64,000 bases of DNA, from the NCBI GenBank assembly GCA_029260215.1, contig JAJDDQ010000039.1, positions 112,313 through 176,312 of the forward strand, written 5' to 3'. The DNA comes from Phycisphaerae bacterium (GTDB lineage Bacteria > Planctomycetota > Phycisphaerae > UBA1845). The notes below the pieces were generated by a model that worked only from the letters and a program-made list of their open reading frames with translations, was not told the origin of the DNA and did not search any database. A program made the position numbers and the translations under genes. Position 1 is the stretch's first letter. Every line of letters starts with the position of its first letter. Below, piece by piece: positions 33,884 through 36,338 of this stretch.

Positions 33884-34000
33884 AAATCAGCGTTAGGAAA
33901 ACCGCGTCGGCCAAGATATCCCGATAACGCCCGCATCCGACCATCACCGCCACCGCCACGGCCGCTTCCACCATCGCTGCCTCTACAAAGGTTACCTGAC

Positions 34001-34095
34001 TTCCTTCCCCCCTTGCAAAGGGGGGATTGAGGGGGGTTCTTCGAAAGCCAGGAGACCTCCCCCAGCCCCTCCTTGTGAAGGAGGGGAGCAGGAAC
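34001..34095. repeat. Interspersed G/C-run repeat with nested hairpins
   Basis: Complementary runs pair as CCCCCCTT-GCAA-AGGGGGG (about 34007-34025) and CCCCTCCTT-GTG-AAGGAGGGG (about 34066-34086), with related G- and C-runs between them. A shorter sequence of the same style is at 61935-61975. It lies just downstream of the topoisomerase VI-like gene, where it may also end transcription. Confidence 0.65.
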
Positions 34096-34120
34096 CCGAA
34101 CGACATTCCCGGAAGCCGCG

Positions 34121-35266
34121 TCAGTCAAGCCACTTCTTCTTCTTCAGCTTCTGCGGCACGTAGGTGTCGGCGATGAACGAAAAATCCTTGTTGGACAGCG
34201 CTTCCAGCTCCAGCTTCACGCCGAGCTTGAGCATATGGTTGATCTCTCTTTGCCACGGGCGGGCTGCGAACCACGGATAGTTGCGGATTTCCTTGGCACG
34301 CTGAATGTCCTTGTCGTTCAAACGCAGGAACACCGACGGCGAAATGTTGAACTCAGCCGCGTCGTAGCTGCTCATGCCGATGAACCGCGCACTCGGGATA
34401 GCCATCCGCATGGATTCGTACGCAAGGTTGATCGAACCCTGCTTCACCACGCTGTAGATGTAGTAGCCCCACGGGTCGTTATCCACCAGGACGTAAATCG
34501 GCAGCTTCAACTCATTCACCATGCGATGACACAATCGGCGCACGCCGCGCGGCGGTTGGCCTCCACCGTGAACGATCATGCACTTGTGCTTCTCCCAAAA
34601 GCGATCCTCGTTGAAACGCATCCAAATCGCTGCCTTCTCGATCAGCAGGATGAACTTGGCTTTGCATTGCAGAAATTGAATGACGTGCGGCTCGACGATC
34701 GACGGGACAGCCCATCCGCCGCTGCCCATGCGGTTGAGCGTGATTTCGTCGCCCGTGTCGCGAATGGTCATAGGCCCGACCATCGCGCCGGCGGGGTTGG
34801 CGAACACGCGCAGCTCCTCGCGCAACGCCCCGATGGAAACCTCGATGTCCTCGATCACCGGGTCGGATTCGGACTGATCGTTAAAAGTCTCTTCCTTGGC
34901 CCCCTCGATGGTATGCTTGCAGTGGTAGAACATGTCACGAATGCTGGCTGTCTTTTGCTGCTCCTGAAGCTTGAGCAGTTCGCTGGACATCAGCATGGTC
35001 TGCATGAAGCGTTTGGCGTTGCCGAGATCGAAGAAAGGCCTCGACGCCCGCGAACTGCCCAGCTCGATAATGCGCTTTTTCGTGTTGAATTCGACGTTGC
35101 TCAGCGTGCGCAGCGGAACGTCCAGCGAGGGGTTGTCAGCCGCTTCGATCTGCTTGACCACAGCCTCCGCCATCGACACGATCCGCTCGTTCGTGCTCCC
35201 GCGAGCCTTGTCGTCGCCCGCCTTCGCCTTCGATCGGCCACCCTTCGCATCCTTACTACCGCCCAT
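34121..35266 (-). CDS. top6A: DNA topoisomerase VI subunit A (Spo11-like)
   Basis: The product has 381 residues from the ATG at 35266 (AAAGG and GGAGG upstream). The catalytic Tyr sits in the 5Y-CAP domain (ASIRDMFYHCKHT). The Toprim metal site is visible as the Glu of LLIEKAAIWMRF and the Asp pair of VLVDNDPWGYYIYSV. The flanking segments FWEKHKCMIVHGGGQPPRG and MGSGGWAVPS are diagnostic of subunit A. With subunit B this enzyme makes ATP-dependent transient double-strand breaks to relax or decatenate DNA. Topoisomerase VI is archaeal and eukaryotic in the main and patchy in bacteria. No subunit B gene adjoins it here, although A and B are often adjacent. The N-terminal 25 residues are Lys/Gly-rich. 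Confidence 0.93.
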   Translation of the reverse strand: MGGSKDAKGGRSKAKAGDDKARGSTNERIVSMAEAVVKQIEAADNPSLDVPLRTLSNVEFNTKKRIIELGSSRASRPFFDLGNAKRFMQTMLMSSELLKLQEQQKTASIRDMFYHCKHTIEGAKEETFNDQSESDPVIEDIEVSIGALREELRVFANPAGAMVGPMTIRDTGDEITLNRMGSGGWAVPSIVEPHVIQFLQCKAKFILLIEKAAIWMRFNEDRFWEKHKCMIVHGGGQPPRGVRRLCHRMVNELKLPIYVLVDNDPWGYYIYSVVKQGSINLAYESMRMAIPSARFIGMSSYDAAEFNISPSVFLRLNDKDIQRAKEIRNYPWFAARPWQREINHMLKLGVKLELEALSNKDFSFIADTYVPQKLKKKKWLD

Positions 35267-35394
35267 ACCTCCGTGCCTTTCAATCTGAAACCGTGAGACC
35301 CGCCCGAGTCGCGTCCATGTGATTGTCCGCCGGGTATCATAGAACATCCCCCGCCCATTGCCCAGACGATCGCCCTCGTGCAGAATCTCTGACG

Positions 35395-35950: not shown

Positions 35951-36163
35951 TTACTCCGGCCTGCTGTTGGTCGCATCCACCACGGCCAGCTTGCCAGTTG
36001 CCAGCCGCTTGCGTGCGATGCAGTGCAACACGTCGAAGACGTCACCGGTCGCAGCCTGGTCGTTCTCATCATCGGACACAAGGCCACGGCAGTAGTCGCT
36101 CGACAGCACCTCGGTTGGCTTGAACAGCCTGCGCGCAAACGACGACTTCCCCGACCCCGTTGG
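35951..36163 (-). pseudogene. Truncated polynucleotide-kinase (PNKP-type) P-loop domain
   Basis: The minus-strand frame reads PTGSGKSSFARRLF (Walker A), then PTEVLSSDYCRGLVSDDEND, and LAVVDATNSRPE before a TAA at 35951. This is the first 70 residues of the kinase domain of bacterial Pnkp-like proteins that work with ligases and phosphatases in RNA repair. The rest of the protein is absent, and so is the normal N-terminus: the P-loop is joined directly to a piece of another gene in a different frame (36164-36338). It is therefore a remnant, not a functional gene. Confidence 0.75.
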
Positions 36164-36338
36164 CACAACGGATTCGATACGAATGCGCGTTGTCTGCCGG
36201 CGCGCCCACGACGACGCCGACGATGCCAACCGGACACACTTGTCCTCCACCGATGGGCGTTGTGGTGACCTTCGTGACAACACGAGTTCCCACGGCGAGG
36301 ATCATGATTGGATTGAGTGCATTCTCACGAGACATCAT
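36164..36338 (-). pseudogene. N-terminal remnant of a KOW-like/nucleotidyltransferase gene
   Basis: The frame starting at the ATG 36338 (or 36335) reads about 55 residues including LAVGTRVVTKVTTTPIGGGQ and VGVVVGAPADNAHSYRIR. As I recall, this is the short beta-barrel leader found at the N-terminus of predicted nucleotidyltransferases that neighbour Pnkp-like kinases in planctomycetes. The similarity ends exactly where the kinase P-loop sequence begins in another frame, which points to a deletion that fused two neighbouring genes. The nucleotidyltransferase catalytic part is missing. Confidence 0.6.

Follow-up and report, generated by a model that had tools for sequence, protein, structure and literature searches.

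The window, that is, the whole stretch of 64,000 nucleotides analysed here, belongs to a Planctomycetota draft MAG of 4.97 Mb in 88 contigs (97% complete, 1.65% contamination), whose named relatives are Phycisphaerae MAGs. It carries top6A, a gene for subunit A of DNA topoisomerase VI (Topo VI), which our genome search found in a single copy and which lies in an open reading frame spanning 34121-35347(-), with the ATG at 35266 as its likely start (Table 1). The product scored 547 bits against the NCBIfam equivalog NF003333, above the cut-off of 465, and Pfam searches recovered the TP6A_N (1.5e-15) and TOP6A-Spo11_Toprim (4e-57) domains. Its PDB matches were the archaeal Top6A structures of Saccharolobus shibatae (2zbk_A), Methanosarcina mazei (2q2e_A) and Methanocaldococcus jannaschii (1d3y_A), which align over almost the full length of the 381-aa protein. 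Tyr114, Glu210, Asp262 and Asp264 are intact and aligned with the known catalytic residues of 1d3y, 2q2e and 2zbk. The protein thus has both the winged helix with its catalytic tyrosine and the Toprim acidic triad of a Topo VI A subunit, and the alignment with solved structures bears out the first-pass annotation, which had considered the active site intact.

Table 1. Position of top6A, its domains and adjacent features in the window.
Feature	Position	Strand	Evidence
top6A, DNA topoisomerase VI subunit A, 381 aa	34121..35266	(-)	NF003333 equivalog, PF04406, PF21180, PDB 2zbk_A E=1e-81
Winged-helix (TP6A_N) domain with catalytic Tyr114 (codon 34925-34927)	34805..35014	(-)	alignment with 1d3y, 2q2e, 2zbk
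Toprim domain: Glu210 (34637-34639), Asp262 (34481-34483), Asp264 (34475-34477)	34145..34654	(-)	structure alignment
Truncated AAA_33 (P-loop kinase) remnant	35951..36283	(-)	E=7e-12; stops downstream in all frames
Dispersed imperfect repeat, ~100 bp	33975..34102		~43 matches genome-wide
Two tandem membrane-type proteins, 352 and 369 aa	31673..33883	(-)	46% identical

The surroundings of the gene had been described as gene debris, a description that holds for the single truncated kinase remnant and for the dispersed repeat; the other neighbours are ordinary intact genes, encoding for example an M16 peptidase, a Rieske protein, RplT, an FHA protein, HemW and FusA. The repeat abuts the 3' end of top6A and is a candidate, possible recombination substrate. 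The two tandem membrane-type proteins gave no match in Pfam or NCBIfam.

The Top6B partner and its conservation with Top6A

As the first-pass annotation had stated, no gene for subunit B stands next to top6A within the window, and this lack of linkage is what speaks for a true orphan, a Spo11-like transesterase working independently of B. However, the search of the full genome returned one strong match to the Top6B transducer domain (2e-58), on contig C25. The encoded Top6B is a protein of 634 aa starting MSKQMTLDF with intact GHKL and transducer domains (HATPase_c, 3e-9; PF09239, Topo-VIb_trans, 9e-58), and the Top6B of M. mazei matches it at 9e-154. The genome therefore contains the GHKL ATPase with transducer that belongs to a Topo VI, and the partner that a stand-alone Spo11 would lack is present. 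The top6B gene lies ~2 kb from dnaA in divergent orientation, with dnaN and then gyrB beyond dnaA (G000:C25:90485-98940; L003 1-6938). Since top6A is 147 kb from the nearest end of its contig (C33) and top6B 98 kb from the nearest end of C25, directly adjoining contigs would still leave ~245 kb or more between the two genes, a minimum that depends on contig integrity and on correct binning of this draft MAG of 88 contigs.

Both subunits are widely conserved together. In genomes of the same family we found A in 44/51 and B in 47/51, and among those of high quality B was present in 30/30 and A in 29/30. Of the 294 genomes sampled across the phylum, both subunits occurred in 170, A alone in only 1 and B alone in 2 (Fisher p~6e-80, not corrected for relatedness), indicating that A and B are inherited together in the lineage. 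An A subunit without B is consequently nearly absent from the phylum (1/171). Together with the B gene of this genome, the passed Topo VI equivalog cut-off and the linked B-A pair in all close relatives, this co-conservation shows that top6A is not an orphan, and a Spo11-like enzyme working alone is most improbable. Of the two possibilities that the first-pass annotation had put forward, a stand-alone Spo11-like function is contradicted by the co-conserved top6B in family and phylum, while a housekeeping Topo VI whose B gene lies elsewhere is what the data support. We are therefore highly confident that top6A supplies subunit A of a standard topoisomerase VI (A2B2, type IIB), the only one of this organism, the two subunit genes being separated. 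What had looked like an orphan, Spo11-like bacterial protein thereby turns out to belong to an ordinary bacterial Topo VI.

Regarding gene order, B and A are same-strand neighbours, with B first and usually beside dnaA, in 29 of the 43 family genomes holding both (28 measured and G025 from coordinates), and they are apart in the remaining 14, the host included, some of them at contig edges. In G013 a single contig holds both genes at a distance of 20 kb, and several linked pairs have intervals of 0.7-2.2 kb between B and A, which suggests stepwise loosening. Divergence of top6B from dnaA was observed in 31 family genomes, again including the host, but not in 8 others with 3 kb or more of flanking sequence; 7 more were untestable. 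Canonical DnaA boxes, sought between dnaA and top6B as a sign of the replication origin, showed no consistent enrichment and no clear cluster. Thus top6B, and usually top6A too, is located in the dnaA-dnaN-gyrB cluster, and the two genes have been split up in several lineages. Separation was also found in four single-contig Phycisphaerae genomes, with linear A-B distances of ~0.48 Mb (G143), 0.94 Mb (G229), 1.27 Mb (G217) and 1.86 Mb (G241), so it is an established state in the class and not an assembly effect of this MAG.

Shared history of the subunits and the position of top6A

Seven genomes (G008, G030, G037, G038, G040, G041 and G042), all with a linked B-A pair, contain both the closest homologues of A (76-80%) and those of B (68-77%), and therefore it is top6A that has moved. 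Maximum-likelihood trees, built from bacterial sequences and two archaeal references that sit on very long branches in both, assigned A (100/100) and B (SH-aLRT 99) to one and the same subclade of eight genomes, and the position of Top6A among Phycisphaerae matches that of Top6B. No remnant of top6A was detected at the B locus by tblastn (best E 0.27).

The two contigs could in principle derive from different organisms, C33 contributing A and C25 contributing B, and the draft state of the MAG with A and B on different contigs is in keeping with such a binning artefact. Nevertheless, contamination is low with only one A and one B in the assembly, GC is similar (58.7% vs 57.8%), both subunits point to the same subclade and the separation recurs in the single-contig genomes of the class; we therefore consider mixed binning very unlikely.

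The locus had also been proposed to be accessory or horizontally acquired. A recently acquired mobile copy of top6A, carried by a plasmid, a phage or an island, would fit the kinase remnant and the repeat beside the gene, as well as a landing site without conserved synteny: in the seven close relatives the Rieske gene is present, with no other window neighbour within 1.5 kb of it. On the other hand, top6A is single copy, its GC (57.9%, with GC3 of 80%) is host-like when compared with the 58.7% of the window, and it groups with its own subclade and other Phycisphaerae, in the same position as B. Moreover, no tRNA was found in the window, no transposase or phage gene was recognised among the neighbours examined, and these neighbours are housekeeping genes. 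We consequently rejected horizontal acquisition of top6A on composition and tree position, and judge a mobile copy extremely unlikely. For the separated but standard Topo VI, the sequence of events would then start from an ancestral top6B-top6A pair beside dnaA-dnaN-gyrB, in which top6B kept its place and top6A would have been relocated by ~245 kb or more.

As a side result, the trees point to an exchange of the A subunit in sister lineages (relatives G003-G050 of family f1, and L158-L180). In the A tree, other members of the family group with Planctomycetia (99/99), while the window's subclade groups with Phycisphaerae; the sister group comprises 34 entries, 33 of them from same-family genomes and one from an uncultured Phycisphaerales (L174). 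The B tree recovers these two groups of the family as sisters (SH-aLRT 97), and B falls among Phycisphaerae. Holding the family together was rejected for A (AU p 4e-5) and an A-like grouping was disfavoured for B (AU p 0.008), both p-values being optimistic given that the grouping was picked after viewing the A tree. Group-consensus sites showed the same tendency, with 9 for the exchange and 0 against in A, and 1 for and 5 against in B. The simplest reading is that A, not B, was likely replaced in the sister lineages and that the host genome keeps the original pair. It seems somewhat probable, then, that in this bacterial family the Topo VI subunits can be separated in the genome and exchanged during evolution, the sister group combining a Planctomycetia-type A with a B and a genome of Phycisphaerae. 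If true, a natural chimera would still act as the sole decatenase in that group, and the likely exchange would provide a natural setting in which to test how closely the evolution of A is coupled to that of B.

Gyrase, topoisomerase IV and the role of Topo VI

The host genome encodes exactly one GyrA, with six C-terminal propeller repeats, and exactly one GyrB-type protein; neither ParC nor ParE was found in the genome search, so it has gyrase but no topoisomerase IV (topo IV). All 24 Topo VI carriers among the Phycisphaerae sampled have one PF00521 (GyrA/ParC) protein, while family f5 of this class, sampled with ten genomes (G132, G172, G192 and others), has neither Topo VI subunit and carries two such proteins in 10/10. 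In one f2 genome, Topo VI is missing and a single PF00521 protein is present. Topo VI and topo IV thus look mutually exclusive in the Phycisphaerae sampled, an exclusion that may represent a single evolutionary event, all ten ParC-like carriers belonging to one family. Topo VI in Planctomycetota is already published (PMC11302465), and the same study reports that topo IV is missing from bacteria with Topo VI other than Pseudomonadota and Terrabacteria, Phycisphaerae and Pirellulales families among them. A further publication describes Topo VI as a preferential decatenase in vitro (PMC8837201).

Because gyrase is present and topo IV absent, Topo VI most likely does the job of topo IV, chromosome decatenation, in this organism, and our data add to the case that it does this work in much of Planctomycetota. 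We infer that Top6A and Top6B assemble in trans, from two unlinked loci, into an active enzyme. With ATP as the driving force, B would close its clamp and thereby cause A to cleave one duplex via Tyr114, aided by Mg2+ in the Toprim site; a second duplex would be passed through the cut before resealing, the enzyme presumably acting as chromosome decatenase in place of topo IV.

Comparison with known systems

Spo11 and the nuclease subunits of MksBEFG, Wadjet and Gabija share distant homology in the winged-helix/Toprim core, according to PMC13040014. These proteins work without Top6B, whereas here Top6B is co-conserved. The archaeal Topo VI of S. shibatae (2ZBK) and M. mazei (2Q2E) has the same domains and catalytic residues in both subunits, but here the host is a bacterium with gyrase. 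Another close counterpart is the Topo VI of other Planctomycetota (NF003333; Pirellula, Thermogutta, Anaerohalosphaera and Sedimentisphaera in PMC11302465), which is alike in protein family and in having A, B and gyrase with no topo IV; in the genome described here, unlike in those, A and B are on separate contigs and, if these abut, no less than ~245 kb from each other.
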